64,000 nucleotides of DNA from Sulfobacillus acidophilus DSM 10332. Its GTDB lineage: Bacteria; Bacillota; Sulfobacillia; Sulfobacillales; Sulfobacillaceae. This document shows positions 12,161 through 52,508 of this stretch, in pieces; position 1 is the stretch's first letter; each line of letters begins with the position of its first letter. The stretch spans positions 744,001 through 808,000 of the forward strand of contig CP003179.1 in the NCBI GenBank assembly GCA_000237975.1. The letters are read 5' to 3'. The translations under genes and the position numbers were made by a program. The notes under the pieces were generated by a model. That model saw only the letters and a list, made by a program, of their open reading frames with translations. It had not been told where the DNA came from and did no database searches.

Positions 12161-12625
12161 GTGGCACGCGAAGAACGGTCGGTGGCGGAAAATCGCAAAG
12201 CACGACATGATTATTTTATCGATGAAGTTTTCGAGGCTGGTTTGGTGTTAACCGGCACCGAAGTCAAGTCTTTGCGCTTAGGACGCGTGAATTTACGAGA
12301 CAGTTTCGCGCGCATCATACACGGCGAAGCTTTTTTGATTAATTGCCATATTGCTCCCTACGAACAAGGGAACCGGTGGAATCACGATCCCTATCGCGAT
12401 CGCAAATTGTTGCTCCACAAAAAGGAAATTCGGGAATTAGCCCAAGAAGTGCGGCAAGAAGGGAAAACCCTGATTCCTTTGCGGATTTATTTTGACAAAA
12501 AGGGGCGGGCTAAGGTATCATTAGCTGTTGCAAGGGGAAAGAAACAATACGATAAACGGCAGTCCATCCATGAACGGGATGCCCAGCGGCAAATCGATCG
12601 GGCCTTGAAAGGACGCCAGCGTTAG
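12161..12625 (+). CDS. smpB: SsrA-binding protein SmpB
   Basis: tmRNA-binding protein of 154 residues that delivers alanyl-tmRNA to stalled ribosomes for trans-translation. The OB-fold motifs [18 protein letters not shown] and the basic C-terminal tail ([19 protein letters not shown]) that mimics a codon-anticodon helix are both intact. The start is GTG at 12161 with TAAGGAG upstream. The tmRNA gene begins five bases after the stop, so the two partners are encoded side by side. Confidence 0.97.
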
Positions 12626-12630
12626 ATAAC

Positions 12631-12985
12631 GGGGGCGAACTAGATTCGACGGAGATGGACGGGGTGCCGGATAGCGAGCCGAGCTCTGTGTCTCGATAAT
12701 CCACAGGACACAATAAGTGCCAACGAAGACTCTTACGAATACGCTTTAGCTGCTTAATCCCAGCTAACGTTTGACGATCAGGCGCCTATCCCTCGTCGCC
12801 AAACGTAAAAATCGATAGGCTACCGATGCGACGGCCCGATCGCATGCGGGACATGAAGGGCTGGCAGGACGTCACCGAGCTTCAGACGGGGATGTCACGC
12901 GAGAACAAAATCTGAAGCTACGCTCGTAGAAGTCCGGTATAACGTGTCTTCGGACGGGACGGGCAGCACGTCCCCGCCTCCACCA
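12631..12985 (+). ncRNA. ssrA: transfer-messenger RNA (tmRNA, SsrA)
   Basis: A complete one-piece tmRNA of about 355 nt. The 5' end GGGGGCG pairs with CGCCTCC at the 3' end (one G-U pair), followed by an encoded ACCA. The resume codon is GCC at 12719, and the tag frame 12719-12757 encodes ANEDSYEYALAA followed by TAA. A T-arm-like segment and several pseudoknot-forming repeats are visible between the tag and the 3' end. The ALAA tail is the usual ClpXP degron. An SspB-like adaptor that could bind the upstream part of the tag is encoded at 48384. A terminator follows. Confidence 0.95.
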
Positions 12986-20550: not shown

Positions 20551-21940
20551 GATCAAGTCCTAATTTGTGTGTAAAAGTTCCCTTGGTTCGGAATGCGTTA
20601 CGCGACCGATGTGGCTTCCGATTGCGAGGGTTCCTCTGCTGCCCCGGCCGACCGTTTCGCCTGCCAGTAGGATTCGAGGTTCAGGTACCGCGGGCCCGTG
20701 GTCCACGCCTCGTGCTGCTCCAGTAACAGCGCCCCTAAGAGGCGGATGGCGGAATCCCGGTTCGGAAAGATCCGAATTACCCGTTCCCGGCGCCGAATTT
20801 CCGCATTGAGCCGTTCAACGCCATTCGTGGTGCGCAATCGGATCCGTAACGGTTCCGGTAATTGTAAGACGGCCAGGGCGTCCGCCAGCCCCTCCTCCAA
20901 CCGCGTCAACGCCCGTCCGGCCCGCTCTTCAAAGTCCTGCACGATCTTCTTCCATAACGTGTCGACGGTGGCCCGGTCCGGCCGGGGCTTCGAAGAGGGA
21001 CCGAAGGCGCCCGTGCAGTTCCTTTTGCACCGATTTCGGGGCCGCGTCCAGCACATTCCGCGTGAGGTGGGTTTGGCACCGCTGCCAACGGGCGCCTTGA
21101 ACGTGTTGGTCGATCGCCTTGCGCAGCCCGCGATGGTCATCGGAGACCACCCGATCGACGCCGGTTAACCCCCGATCTTTCAGGTCGGTAAACACGGTGG
21201 ACCATGTCTGCTGAGATTCGCTGTCCCCGATCCAGAACCCCAGAATTTCCCGATACCCTGCGGCATTAATGCCGGTCACCACACACCCGCTCCGGGGCCG
21301 CACGGCCCCGTGTTCGCGGATTTTCCGCACCAAGGCGTCGACGATGAGGAACGGGTAGGGGGTCTCGGCCAGGGACCGCGTCCGCCATGGCTTTACGGCC
21401 GCGTCGAGACCTTTCGCCAACTCGGATACGGTGGACTTAGAAAATTCCGTGCCACAGAGCTCTTCGGTGACCCGTCGGATTTTGCGGGTGGACACCCATT
21501 CACCACCATTTCCATCAACGTTAACACGAGGGCTTTTTCGTGACGCTGATAGCGATCAAAGAGCGCGGGACTGAACTCGCCGTCCCGCGTGCGCGGGACG
21601 TCCAGCGTCAACGTGCCGACGCGCGTCGTCAACTGCCGGCTGCGGTAGCCATTCCGATATCCTTGCCGCCCTTCGGTCCGCTCATACCGGTCGGCTTGGA
21701 GGTATTCGGTCACTTCGGCATCTAACACCGGATTTAAGACCTGTTGCAATAACTGAGCCAGCGCCTGATCTTTTTGCTCGACAAGGGCTTGGATTGTTTG
21801 AGCATCCCGCGTAATCTGATAGTGAGCCATTGCGTCATCCTCCGGGAGATTTGTGGGTTTTGTCGCTTTCAAATCTACCAAGGGAACCCAATGGCTCCTA
21901 AATCTTTAAGCCCTTTTTACACACTATACTGGACCCTACT
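20551..21940 (-). mobile_element. IS256-family element, copy A (inactivated)
   Basis: 1390 bp. It runs from GATCAAGTCC at the left to GGACCCTACT at the right, with imperfect terminal inverted repeats sharing GTCC and GTGTGTAAAA. It is nearly identical to copy B at 30375-31761 and in the same orientation. No 8-9 bp target duplication is seen at either copy. Confidence 0.9.
20598..21830 (-). pseudogene. IS256-family (Mutator-type) transposase, copy A, two frameshifts
   Basis: The sequence aligns base for base with the intact 409-residue transposase of copy B. It has two disabling changes: CCC at 21495-21497 where copy B has CCCC, and a duplicated CCGG near 20978-20985. It also has a handful of substitutions. 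The DDE-type catalytic region is therefore split over three frames. The start corresponds to the ATG at 21830 preceded by GGAGGATGACG. Copy B could in principle act in trans on its ends. Confidence 0.9.
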
Positions 21941-30374: not shown

Positions 30375-31761
30375 GATCAAGTCCTAATTTGTGTGTAAAA
30401 GTTCCCTTGGTTCGGAATGCGTTACGCGACCGATGTGGCTTCCGATTGCGAGGGTTCCTCTGCTGCCCCGGCCGACCGTTTCGCCTGCCAGTAGGATTCG
30501 AGGTTCAGGTACCGCGGGCCCGTGGTCCACGCCTCGTGCTGCTCCAGTAACAGCGCCCCTAAGAGGCGGATGGCGGAATCCCGGTTCGGAAAGATCCGAA
30601 TTACCCGTTCCCGGCGCCGAATTTCCGCATTGAGCCGTTCAACGCCATTCGTGGTGCGCAATCGGATCCGTAACGGTTCCGGTAATTGTAAGACGGCCAG
30701 GGCGTCCGCCAGCCCCTCCTCCAACCGCGTCAACGCCCGTCCGGCCCGCTCTTCAAAGTCCTGCACGCTCTTCTTCCATAACGTGTCGACGGTGGCCCGG
30801 TCCGGGGCTTCGAAGAGGGACCGAAGGCGCCCGTGCAGTTCCTTTTGCACCGATTTCGGGGCCGCGTCCAGCACATTCCGCGTGAGGTGGGTTTGGCACC
30901 GCTGCCAACGGGCGCCTTGAACGTGTTGGTCGATCGCCTTGCGCAGCCCGCGATGGTCATCGGAGACCACCCGATCGACGCCGGTTAACCCCCGATCTTT
31001 CAGGTCGGTAAACACGGTGGACCATGTCTGCTGAGATTCGCTGTCCCCGATCCAGAACCCCAGAATTTCCCGATACCCTGCGGCATTAATGCCGGTCACC
31101 ACACACCCGCTCCGGGGCCGCACGGCCCCGTGTTCGCGGATTTTCAGCACTAAGGCGTCGACGATCAGGAACGGGTAGGGGGTCTCGGCCAGGGACCGCG
31201 TCCGCCATGGCTTTACGGCCGCGTCGAGACCTTTCGCCAACTCGGATACGGTGGACTTAGAAAATTCCGTGCCACAGAGCTCTTCGGTGACCCGTCGGAT
31301 TTTGCGGGTGGACACCCCATTCACCACCATTTCCATCAACGTTAACACGAGGGCTTTTTCGTGACGCTGATAGCGATCAAAGAGCGCGGGACTGAACTCG
31401 CCGTCCCGCGTGCGCGGGACGTCCAGCGTCAACGTGCCGACGCGCGTCGTCAACTGCCGGCTGCGGTAGCCATTCCGATATCCTTGCCGCCCTTCGGTCC
31501 GCTCATACCGGTCGGCTTGGAGGTATTCGGTCACTTCGGCATCTAACACCTGATTTAAGACCTGTTGCAATAACTGAGCCAGCGCCTGATCTTTTTGCTC
31601 GACAAGGGCTTGGATTGTTTGAGCATCCCGCGTAATCTGATAGTGAGCCATTGCGTCATCCTCCGGGAGATTTGTGGGTTTTGTCGCTTTCAAATCTACC
31701 AAGGGAACCCAATGGCTCCTAAATCTTTAAGCCCTTTTTACACACTATACTGGACCCTACT
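30375..31761 (-). mobile_element. IS256-family element, copy B (intact)
   Basis: 1387 bp with the same ends as copy A: GATCAAGTCC at the left, GGACCCTACT at the right, and inverted GTGTGTAAAA cores. The end resembles the classical IS256 terminus (GATAAAGTCC). It interrupts the TPR gene. No direct target duplication is present (flanks GCAACAACG and TGGTTTGGA), so rearrangement has occurred at one or both ends. Confidence 0.92.
30422..31651 (-). CDS. IS256-family transposase (copy B)
   Basis: 409 residues, an intact Mutator-type DDE transposase. The start is the ATG at 31651 preceded by GGAGGATGACGCA. The DDE motifs are around FLIVDALVLKIRE (first Asp), GVDRVVSDDHRGL (second Asp, with the family SDxHxGL pattern) and NGVERLNAEIRRRERVIRIFPN (Glu). 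The ends and reading frame are both complete, so this copy could still be active and mobilise copy A. Confidence 0.95.
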   Translation of the reverse strand: MAHYQITRDAQTIQALVEQKDQALAQLLQQVLNQVLDAEVTEYLQADRYERTEGRQGYRNGYRSRQLTTRVGTLTLDVPRTRDGEFSPALFDRYQRHEKALVLTLMEMVVNGVSTRKIRRVTEELCGTEFSKSTVSELAKGLDAAVKPWRTRSLAETPYPFLIVDALVLKIREHGAVRPRSGCVVTGINAAGYREILGFWIGDSESQQTWSTVFTDLKDRGLTGVDRVVSDDHRGLRKAIDQHVQGARWQRCQTHLTRNVLDAAPKSVQKELHGRLRSLFEAPDRATVDTLWKKSVQDFEERAGRALTRLEEGLADALAVLQLPEPLRIRLRTTNGVERLNAEIRRRERVIRIFPNRDSAIRLLGALLLEQHEAWTTGPRYLNLESYWQAKRSAGAAEEPSQSEATSVA

Positions 31762-48075: not shown

Positions 48076-48383
48076 GATTCGATCCTCCTTGAATGCTTTT
48101 TGAATAAGGCTACTGGCTGAATACCCTATGCACGCGGAGGAATGCTGGCGCATTTTTTGCGAATGATACCCATTCTCAGTCCAATGGCACCTTGCGAGAA
48201 TGCGAAATTATACATATGGGTGACTATCCGTTGAGGACCTCGCATGAGGGCGTCAGCCGGGTCTGGTAGCCATTGGCTAAAATTTCCCTGATAAAGCGTT
48301 TTTCGGTACCATGACGGTTATGATAGGGAATAAGAGTTTAAGAAGCGTACAAGATGACGGTGTTTAACGGAAGGATGATAGCC
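48076..48383. other. divergent intergenic region between the VIT gene and sspB
   Basis: 308 bp that should hold both promoters. I could not pick out convincing -35/-10 pairs or a metal-regulator box. Confidence 0.3.
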
Positions 48384-48809
48384 ATGACCACTCCCAAGTC
48401 TCTTAAAGTGTTCTTGATTCAAGCGGTCTATCATTGGTGTGTTGATCAAGGCTATACCCCCTATATCGGGGTAAAGGACGATGAGCCCGGCGTATCGGTG
48501 CCGCCAGGCTATTCCCAAGAGGGCATTACAACGCTCAATGTGGCTCCCCGTGCCGTCCATGACTGGCAGACGACGGCCACCGGATGGACATTTGACGCGC
48601 GGTTTCAAGGAGAGTCGGTATCCATTCGGGTTCCCTTTCACGCCATAATGGCGATATACGCGCGAGAAACCGGGCAAGGTCTTTTTATGTCGACGGAACC
48701 GGGCATGGGGGGGATCGTGTTTGGGCCGGACGAGGTCCCGGACGACTCGCCGGAGCCCCCGACGCCTAAAGGCCGTGCCGGATTTCGGGTCATTAAAGGA
48801 CAATCTTAA
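48384..48809 (+). CDS. sspB: SspB-like ClpXP adaptor protein
   Basis: 141 residues. The domain matches SspB: VFLIQAVYHWCVDQGYTPYIGV, then TTLNVAPRAVHDWQ, FDARFQGESVSIRVPFHAIMAIYARETGQGLFM, followed by an acidic/Pro-rich linker (PDEVPDDSPEPPTPKGRA) and a C-terminal basic tail FRVIKGQS comparable to the ClpX-binding tail. In Proteobacteria SspB tethers ssrA-tagged proteins to ClpXP. The ATG at 48384 (GAAGGATGATAG upstream) is preferred over an in-frame start at 48354. The tag encoded by the tmRNA in this window (ANEDSYEYALAA) has the ANxxxxY-type features SspB reads. Unusual for a Firmicute. Confidence 0.85.
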   Translation: MTTPKSLKVFLIQAVYHWCVDQGYTPYIGVKDDEPGVSVPPGYSQEGITTLNVAPRAVHDWQTTATGWTFDARFQGESVSIRVPFHAIMAIYARETGQGLFMSTEPGMGGIVFGPDEVPDDSPEPPTPKGRAGFRVIKGQS

Positions 48810-49563: not shown

Positions 49564-49699
49564 GGGTGGGCTCCTCGCTTTCGATAGATCACCGGGTAGG
49601 GTATCCTTGACAAGTAATCCGAAATATGTCAAAGATAAACGAAACTGATTGATATGAAAAAATTGACAAATCCTACAGTGGATGTCAAGGGGGCACCGG

Positions 49700-50899
49700 A
49701 TGAATACCGTTGTGGTTACCGGTTTAGGTATGGTTACGCCGTTTGGACTGGGCATTGACATCCTCTGGGATCGGTTATTAAAAGGCCATCATGCGTTTCG
49801 GCCCATTACCGGACTGGCCCCCAAACCGTTGGTGGGGGCTCCGGTAGATCTGTCGTTGGATACCCTCCTCGATCCCCGGGTTCTTCGCCAAACCGATCGG
49901 TTCGTCCACTTCGGTCTGATAGCGGCGGAGGCCGCGCTATCGGCAGCCGGAAATCCTCATCGGACGGTATCGTCCGATCGGATGGGGGTGGTGCTGGGGA
50001 ACGCGGTCGGAGGACTGGGTACGTTTCGTGACGGCACCCGCACGCTGGCGGACGGGGGGCGTCTCTCGCCGTTTTTTGTCCCCGCCTTCATCCCCAATAT
50101 GGCGGCCGCGCGGATTGCCATGGCTTTTCAAATTCACGGGATGAACCTCACGGTTTCCACCGCGTGTGCGGCAGGGACGGATGCGATAGGGATTGCTTTC
50201 GACATCATTCGGAATGGCCGAGCCGATGTGGTTATTGCCGGAGGGGCGGAGGCGTTATTTATCCCGGAAATGGTGACGGGTTTATTACAAACCCGGGCGC
50301 TTTCGCCGGTGGCCGAACCCGACGAGGCGTGTCGACCGTTTGACCAGGACCGCACGGGCATGGTGATGGGGGAAGGCGCGGCTATATTGATTTTAGAGCG
50401 CGAAGATCATGCCCGGGCCCGTGGCATCCGGGCTTTGGCGCGTGTACTCGGGTATGGTTCGGCCGGTGACGGAGAACATCCGGCAGCTCCGGCGGTCGAT
50501 GGTCATGGACAACGTCTAGCCATGGCGACGGCGATAAAGGAAGCGGGTATCCGTCCCCAAGACGTGGATTATGTCAACGCCCACGGCACGGCAACGGTGG
50601 TTGGCGATCGGGTCGAATGGACGTCGATTCTCGAGGTGGTCGGACCCGTGACGACCTCATCGATCAAGGGGAGTGTCGGGCACCTGTTAGGAGCCGCCGG
50701 AGCCCTAGAGGCCGCCGTTACCGTAAAAATTTTAGAGGAGCAGATGGTGCCGCCCACGGTCGGGTGTCAACGGGTCGATCCGTTATGTCCCCTGGACATC
50801 GTGCATGAAAGTCCCCGTCGTCTTCCGGTCAAATTTGCGTTGTCCAACTCCTTTGGACTTGGCGGGCAAAATGCCAGTGTTGTCCTCGGGAGGATTTAA
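49700..50899 (+). CDS. beta-ketoacyl-ACP synthase (FabF-like)
   Basis: 399 residues, a condensing enzyme of KAS I/II type. The active-site Cys is in TVSTACAAGTDA, the two His are in VNAHGTATVVGD and SVGHLLGAAGALEA, and Lys is in SSIKGSVGH. N- and C-terminal thiolase halves are complete. The loop after HGTAT is shorter than in standard FabF. ATG 49700 has GGGGGCACC upstream. The stop is 3 bp before an acyltransferase gene, so the two form an operon. Whether it serves housekeeping or special fatty acids is unclear, since the usual fab cluster is not here. Confidence 0.88.
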   Translation: MNTVVVTGLGMVTPFGLGIDILWDRLLKGHHAFRPITGLAPKPLVGAPVDLSLDTLLDPRVLRQTDRFVHFGLIAAEAALSAAGNPHRTVSSDRMGVVLGNAVGGLGTFRDGTRTLADGGRLSPFFVPAFIPNMAAARIAMAFQIHGMNLTVSTACAAGTDAIGIAFDIIRNGRADVVIAGGAEALFIPEMVTGLLQTRALSPVAEPDEACRPFDQDRTGMVMGEGAAILILEREDHARARGIRALARVLGYGSAGDGEHPAAPAVDGHGQRLAMATAIKEAGIRPQDVDYVNAHGTATVVGDRVEWTSILEVVGPVTTSSIKGSVGHLLGAAGALEAAVTVKILEEQMVPPTVGCQRVDPLCPLDIVHESPRRLPVKFALSNSFGLGGQNASVVLGRI

Positions 50900-50902
50900 G
50901 TT

Positions 50903-51781
50903 ATGCCAAAGGATGGGGTGGTTGCGCTATTTCCTGGTCAAGGAGACGTACGCATGGCCAAAGACGGCTGGAACCGACATCCGATCGTGCAGGAAGTATT
51001 TCGAGAAGCATCCGACATTGCCTGCCGACCCATCCCGGCACCGAGCGATCTCACCCCTGATAGTCCTCAGGTCGAGCGCCAGCTATCGTTAATGGCCGCC
51101 AGTCTTGGGCGTTGGGAAATGATCCGGCAAGAAGGCGTGTCGATTGTTGCCGCGGGGGGGATTAGCTTAGGGGAATACGCCGCGGCGGTGGTAACGGGCG
51201 CCTTATCCCGGGCCGACGGGTTTCGAGCCGTGTTGGCCCGGGGGCGGTGTATGGATCGCTACGCACGAGCCGGCAATATGCTGGCCGTTCTCGGGCTTGA
51301 TACCGACAATCTTCGTCATGCGTTGCAGGGTGTGGCCGCGGATGCTTATATCGCATGCATCTATGGGCCCCAGCATCATCTGGTGTCGGGAACGGATAGT
51401 GCATTGCCGCAAGTGCGTCTTCGGCTATCGCAACCGGGAATCCGGGTGGTGACCGTACCTACGGGGATTCCGTCCCATTGTCCCTTAATGGCTGCGGTCG
51501 TACCCTGCCTGTACCGGGCATTTAAGACATTAGACTGGCGCCCTCTGAGTATTCCGTGGCTGAGTGGGGTTGATGGGCAAGTGACCCGGCGGGTTGTTAC
51601 CGTCCGGGAGCGATTAGTTCGGCAAACGGTTGAACCGGTTCATTGGCTTCATATGGTGCACACGCTTCGCTATGTGCATAATCGGGTGATGGATATCGGG
51701 CCTGGTCAGAGTGTTTCACGGCTTTTAAAAAATCAACCCGGTTTGGCTTTAATTCCTTACCGGGAACGGATTATGCCATAG
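50903..51781 (+). CDS. FabD-like acyltransferase with altered GxSxG box
   Basis: 292 residues of the malonyl-CoA:ACP transacylase fold. VALFPGQGDVRM is the N-terminal motif; the nucleophile elbow reads GGISLGEYAA where FabD has GHSLGEY, so the Ser is kept but the preceding His is Ile. LARGRCMDRY (Arg for malonyl carboxylate) and IPSHCPLM (catalytic His) are conserved. It follows the ketoacyl synthase by 3 bp and ends in an 11-bp tail-to-tail overlap with the SDR gene. It probably loads an acyl group for the adjacent synthase; the changed elbow may alter acyl selectivity. Confidence 0.85.
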   Translation: MPKDGVVALFPGQGDVRMAKDGWNRHPIVQEVFREASDIACRPIPAPSDLTPDSPQVERQLSLMAASLGRWEMIRQEGVSIVAAGGISLGEYAAAVVTGALSRADGFRAVLARGRCMDRYARAGNMLAVLGLDTDNLRHALQGVAADAYIACIYGPQHHLVSGTDSALPQVRLRLSQPGIRVVTVPTGIPSHCPLMAAVVPCLYRAFKTLDWRPLSIPWLSGVDGQVTRRVVTVRERLVRQTVEPVHWLHMVHTLRYVHNRVMDIGPGQSVSRLLKNQPGLALIPYRERIMP

Positions 51782-52508
51782 CCGAATATCCCCCGTCGAC
51801 GGTGAAGACCTGCCCGGTCACCATCGGTTGCCGGGCCAGGCACCATACGGCTTCGGCCACATCGGCCGGAAGAAGCGGTTGGTGGAGAGGGGCCCGGCTT
51901 TGAAAAGTCTGAAGCCAGTTGGGACCATCGGTAAAGTGGTGAAGGGCTTCCGATTCCATGGGACCGGCGGCAATCACGTTAACGCGGATATTTTGTGGTC
52001 CCAATTCCCGGGCAAATTGACGGGCTAGGCTTTCCAGGGCGGCTTTAGAGGCCCCGACTAACCCATAGTCCGGATATGATCGGGCGGCTCCGAGACTACT
52101 AATGCCCATTAAATGGCCGCCTTCGGACATGAACGGCACAGCCGCCTGGGCGAGCGTAACGAATCCCCAGGCATTGACGGCCATCGTGAACTCGAAATGG
52201 CGCCAACGGGTATCTAATAGGGGACGGGCGACTCCCTGCGCCGCATTATGGACGGCTAGCGTAATGGGACCGTATCGCGTGGACACGTGTCGGGCGGCAT
52301 CGGCCATCGCCTCCGGGTCGCGTACGTCTGCCCGGATCACGCTTACCGGGACTTTCTCGCTTAACTGGTCTTCGGCCGCTTTGGCTTGGCGATGGTGGCG
52401 TAAATAGAGGAGTCCCAGAGCATACCCTTCACGCGCCAACCGCTGAGCAATAGCCAATCCAATGCCCCGGGTGCCGCCGGTGATGAGAGCCACAGGATGT
52501 CCCGGCAT
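51771..52508 (-). CDS. fabL: FabL-like enoyl-ACP reductase (SDR)
   Basis: 245 residues of the short-chain dehydrogenase family. N-terminal NAD(P) motif ALITGGTRGIGLAIAQ; HNAAQGVARPL in place of the usual NNAG; SSLGAARSYPDYGLVGASKAALE has the Tyr-(X)6-Lys spacing that marks enoyl reductases (FabL/FabI) rather than ketoreductases (Tyr-(X)3-Lys). The C-terminal FTVDGGYS is typical. FabL is the triclosan-tolerant enoyl reductase of Bacillus. Start ATG 52508. Convergent with the ketoacyl synthase/acyltransferase pair, together making most of an elongation cycle. Confidence 0.8.
   Translation of the reverse strand: MPGHPVALITGGTRGIGLAIAQRLAREGYALGLLYLRHHRQAKAAEDQLSEKVPVSVIRADVRDPEAMADAARHVSTRYGPITLAVHNAAQGVARPLLDTRWRHFEFTMAVNAWGFVTLAQAAVPFMSEGGHLMGISSLGAARSYPDYGLVGASKAALESLARQFARELGPQNIRVNVIAAGPMESEALHHFTDGPNWLQTFQSRAPLHQPLLPADVAEAVWCLARQPMVTGQVFTVDGGYSAMA

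Follow-up and report, generated by a model that had tools for sequence, protein, structure and literature searches.

The chromosome of the Gram-positive acidophile Sulfobacillus acidophilus DSM 10332 encodes a member of the SspB adaptor family, although reviews of this family place none in its lineage; a 2021 review states that SspB occurs solely in certain proteobacteria (PMC8138137). The window analysed here (the whole stretch of 64,000 nucleotides) also contains a tmRNA whose tag has tyrosine at position 7, as in the E. coli tag. The protein is probably a genuine SspB adaptor, acquired by an ancestor of S. acidophilus from a proteobacterium and acting on the local tag.

The sspB gene and its product

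The reading frame spans 48354/48384-48809 on the forward strand and is intact. We prefer the ATG at 48384 as start because GGAAGG lies 9 nt upstream. The features of the gene are as follows.

48369..48374, forward strand: putative ribosome-binding site GGAAGG (direct sequence reading)
48384..48809, forward strand: sspB, SspB-family ClpXP adaptor, 141 aa (PF04386; PDB SspB chains by sequence and fold)
48393..48701, forward strand: substrate-binding domain, residues 4-106 (pLDDT mostly >90; fold match 1ou8_A)
48702..48767, forward strand: acidic, Pro-rich linker, residues 107-128 (pLDDT ~50-60; sequence)
48768..48797, forward strand: ClpX-binding (XB)-like tail KGRAGFRVIK, then GQS (aligned with E. 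coli RGGRPALRVVK)

The Pfam family SspB (PF04386) matches the product with an E-value of 5.4e-21 (75.7 bits against a cut-off of 27). Among PDB sequences, phmmer gave significant E-values for E. coli and H. influenzae SspB chains only, and a profile built from relatives reached an E-value of about 1e-43. The NCBIfam SspB equivalogs NF008762-NF008770 gave strong matches, at best 111.7 bits, that did not reach the cut-off of 135; the protein is best classed as a broad-family member outside these lineage subfamilies, an outlying position that would explain the scores below cut-off. An AlphaFold model built from 49 sequences has a pLDDT of ~95 over residues 11-100, with the C-terminal 35 residues disordered. 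Every SspB structure ranks on top for this model in Foldseek and VIA-align, with an rmsd of 1.6 and a Z of 18.4 over 103 residues for 1ou8_A, from the H. influenzae SspB-ssrA complex, and a Z of 15.9 for 8et3, the ClpXP delivery complex. All nine columns that are invariant in a 54-row SspB alignment are kept (W18, P40, N52, A57, F74, G76, E95, G97 and G99), and three N-terminal residues that are near-invariant among 92 proteobacterial and viral SspBs (P, Y and R) are V, F and Q here. The SspB-like frame put forward in the preliminary description is thus real, by its Pfam match, its fold and its invariant core, and from sequence and model together the identification of its product as an SspB-family member appears secure.

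The gene stands alone between a VIT1-family gene and a fatty-acid/polyketide-like cluster. There is no sspA directly upstream, hence the locus is not of the sspA-sspB operon type. Promoter and terminator scans around sspB gave no signal above chance, the repeats around it are unremarkable, and its codon use resembles that of host genes. Relatives of the flanking genes occur at 68–71% within the same family and are patchily distributed, which places sspB within a variable segment of what is genuinely a Sulfobacillus chromosome. Contamination or misassembly was excluded, as the gene sits in a finished 3.47 Mb chromosome beside neighbours with such same-family relatives.

Transposase genes mark a variable region of the window. 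Near-identical transposase copies lie at 20598-21881 and 30422-31702, one broken into several frames and the other intact, with further transposase-like genes at ~17.4k, 33.2k, 38.7k and 41.4k. A cluster of ketoacyl synthase, acyltransferase and short-chain reductase genes occupies 49682-52508, and ~70% relatives of its ketoacyl synthase were seen in just 4 of 33 other family genomes.

Distribution and origin of sspB

PF04386 was detected in one of 398 genomes across the phylum and in one of 154 of the class, S. acidophilus both times; the positive controls, E. coli and Caulobacter, were both detected. A tree of RNase R places the genome as sister to two genera with support of 100/99, and the PF04386 search of the class sample found SspB in neither. 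An alignment query of an 84,980-species collection gave at least 585 confirmed SspB loci, the best 80 of which carry proteobacterial or unspecific bin titles, with identities of at most ~48%. No near relative of sspB was found in the genome, viral, plasmid and phage collections; the plasmid and phage collections returned proteobacterial SspBs only (31–43% identity), and a more distant scan of viral contigs returned nine loci.

The gene is a singleton in the class and phylum samples and all its close sequence relatives found are proteobacterial, hence the lateral transfer considered in the preliminary description is well supported. In the SspB phylogeny proposed there, built from 93 sequences, the S. 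acidophilus protein stands beside beta-proteobacterial forms; this placement is weak (support 69/85, few alignment columns) and the protein has the longest branch, at 2.18 changes per site. These same features mean that no named donor was fixed. A recent transfer was excluded by the lack of a near relative in the collections searched and by host-like codon use; with relatives at most ~48% identical, the gain would not be recent. Sequence comparison therefore makes an old lateral gain from Proteobacteria the likely origin. The very long branch counts against the adaptor reading and could reflect relaxed or altered function.

SspB-like genes were also seen in Pseudomonas phage pf16, in Xanthomonas phage LucasX and in several IMG/VR contigs (L007, 3007-3390; L009, 1504-2070; L090-L098). 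These genes perhaps redirect host ClpXP; a part of the viral contigs may derive from the host instead.

The tmRNA tag and its register

The tmRNA gene and its partner smpB lie upstream of sspB in the window.

12161..12625, forward strand: smpB, directly upstream of ssrA (ORF recognised from sequence and position)
12631..12985, forward strand: ssrA (tmRNA), RF00023, 151.2 bits against a cut-off of 47, E 1.7e-59
12719..12757, forward strand: tmRNA tag frame ANEDSYEYALAA-stop (codons read directly; aligned with relatives)

ARAGORN missed the tmRNA at 12631-12985, which Rfam scores at 151 bits; pipelines relying on ARAGORN only may miss Sulfobacillus tmRNAs.

The tag codons, GCC AAC GAA GAC TCT TAC GAA TAC GCT TTA GCT GCT TAA, encode ANEDSYEYALAA. 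The alanine charged on tmRNA precedes the encoded residues, hence the full tag is A-ANEDSYEYALAA. Set against the E. coli tag AANDENY-ALAA, the full tag AANEDSY-EYALAA has in common the Asn at position 3, an acid at 4 and Tyr at 7, and carries a two-residue spacer ahead of ALAA. In the E. coli tag, SspB recognises AANDENY and ClpX recognises ALAA; four residues inserted between these two sites are tolerated with SspB (PMC8512704). The likeness to an SspB-read tag is real and sharper than first claimed, the tyrosine falling at position 7 once the charged alanine is counted. As for the two features originally named, the Tyr stands, in the same register as in AANDENY, while the ANED start alone carries little information, AN[DE] starts being frequent among SspB-free Bacillota.

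That the protein serves as an adaptor for this tag is the reading with the best support; it is consistent with all the tests made here, and sequence and model together make it fairly probable. Stalled ribosomes would be rescued by tmRNA-SmpB, which would append A-ANEDSYEYALAA; a dimeric SspB domain would then grip AANEDSY via Ala1, Asn3, the acidic residue at 4 and Tyr7, and the adaptor would tether its cargo to ClpX for degradation.

In the phylum and class samples, 195 tmRNAs gave readable tags, one from this genome and 194 from SspB-free Bacillota. Besides this genome's tag, 5 of the 194 have the AN[DE]xxY register, with Tyr at 7 (two are ANDSNYALAA and three ANDNNYALAAA); with Phe admitted as well as Tyr, the number is 12 of 194. 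All eight readable tags of the sister genera are ANESNDSFEYALAA, and other tags of the same family include ANNTEENYALAA, AKDNNSFDYALAA and similar ones. No other genome of the S. acidophilus family has Tyr at position 7. One relative, G487, in which SspB was not detected, has the tag ANEDNFDYALAA, of equal length and with Phe at 7. As a positive control, AND..[YF] was present in 20 of 20 readable tags from SspB-bearing proteobacterial genomes, several of them extended after the aromatic residue (ANDDNYEGYALAA, ANDENFEAEYALAA), so other genomes with sspB do share the register. Related genomes with sspB and unrelated tags, which would have spoken against the proposal, were not seen; sspB was found in no related genome of the samples.

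The co-occurrence of SspB and the Tyr-7 register in one genome is suggestive of adaptor–tag matching. Taken naively, a lone Bacillota genome with SspB would show such a match by chance in ~3% of cases for Tyr and in ~6% when Phe also counts, estimates for a single event, judged post hoc and carrying no phylogenetic correction. Position 4 is Glu in S. acidophilus and Asp in all SspB-bearing proteobacteria sampled, which would argue mildly against matching. Furthermore, the G487 tag suggests that the register may predate SspB, leaving a Phe-to-Tyr difference only. A derived loss of 6 nt from the tag, compared with the sister genera, was weighed as well; the equally long tag of G487 leaves no preferred direction for such a change. 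Natural matching after transfer, in which the lineage gaining SspB has, or acquired, Tyr-7, is put forward tentatively, as a possibility we hold to be doubtful. If true, either the tag was a pre-adaptation that let the host retain SspB, or a single Phe-to-Tyr change tuned it to the adaptor.

E. coli SspB also delivers a fragment of RseA. The S. acidophilus protein might likewise have been kept as an adaptor chiefly for some other cargo, and its fit to the local tag would then be coincidental. Tags starting with AN[DE], and even with Tyr-7, in SspB-free Bacillota, the Glu at position 4, the Phe-7 tag of G487 and the long SspB branch all favour such a coincidence. We nevertheless judge it unlikely, since the one SspB-bearing genome of the class also has the one Tyr-7 tag of its family, and the core residues invariant in tag-binding SspBs are kept.

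Two further groups of tags drew attention in the survey. Within one family of the same class, six tmRNAs (L239, L241, L246, L253, L256, L260) encode ANDSNFALAA and two (L223, L231) ANDSNYALAA, an SspB-type register where SspB was not detected; possible explanations are a different adaptor or a tag inherited from an ancestor. Among proteobacteria, the natural tags of Stutzerimonas, the BD1-7 clade, an Alteromonadaceae bin and Pseudomonas mosselii (L356, L357, L360, L361) have 3–4 extra residues between the position-7 aromatic and the ClpX signal, and these extended tags (ANDDNYEGYALAA, ANDANYEGAALAA, ANDENFEAEYALAA) resemble engineered spacer tags.

Docking to ClpX

The preliminary description credited the protein with the linker and tail needed for ClpX docking. 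Both are present, but the tail, KGRAGFRVIKGQS, is a variant. It ends in FRVIK-GQS against the usual LRVVK-COOH, three residues past the usual C-terminus, and Phe replaces the Leu equivalent to E. coli L161, which all other SspBs compared retain. The tail Lys is kept, and I for V is common among SspBs. By alignment, then, the putative docking tail is off consensus.

The genome encodes clpX, with clpP-like and tig-like genes directly before it. The N-terminal zinc domain of ClpX is canonical, its closest solved relatives including E. coli 2ds5 and 2ds8. We saw no sign of a zinc-domain change specific to S. acidophilus that would fit the odd tail, full-match family members all scoring 79.8 bits. 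Such a change is in principle not needed, because E. coli SspB, when produced in B. subtilis, functions together with the ClpXP of that host (PMC8138137).

The altered tail, with its replaced Leu and three added residues, could also mean that the gene is a transfer relic under weak constraint and a working adaptor no more, as could the altered near-invariant N-terminal positions and the variable region with transposase genes not far off. Against this stand the unbroken frame, its plausible ribosome-binding site and its host-like codon use. In addition, the invariant core has been kept despite the long branch, which argues for selection; a relic is therefore improbable.

Comparison with known systems

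The SspBs of E. coli and H. influenzae (1ox9, 1ou8, 8et3) resemble the S. acidophilus protein in fold (Z 15.9–18.4), invariant core, linker and C-terminal hydrophobic-basic tail, and their partner tag has the same A-A-N-acid-x-x-Y pattern. The S. acidophilus protein differs in its identity to them of ~36–39%, in FRVIK-GQS for LRVVK, in its Bacillota host and in having no adjacent sspA. The chromosomal SspB of Pseudomonas sp. PDM18 and beta-proteobacterial SspBs share 45–48% identity with it, among the highest found; the Pseudomonas gene (L010) lies in the order petABC-sspA-sspB, whereas the S. acidophilus gene is alone. SspB-alpha of Caulobacter crescentus (2qas, 2qaz) has the same general fold (Z 11.6) but only ~19% identity, and is clearly further away than the gamma/beta type.

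A further parallel is engineered. DAS+4 / AANDENYSENYALAA tags likewise carry a spacer between the SspB site and the ClpX signal, and heterologous SspB works with a Gram-positive ClpX in Bacillus subtilis (PMC8138137, PMC8512704). In S. acidophilus both partners occur naturally. The spacer has two residues, against four in the engineered tags, and the tag would be a natural one with a spacer between SspB and ClpX signals. If it works, this natural Gram-positive case would mean that the adaptor can move onto a foreign ClpXP, as engineered in B. subtilis. The pair could serve to examine whether an adaptor and its tag co-evolve, and S. acidophilus could supply an SspB–tag pair from a moderately thermophilic organism.
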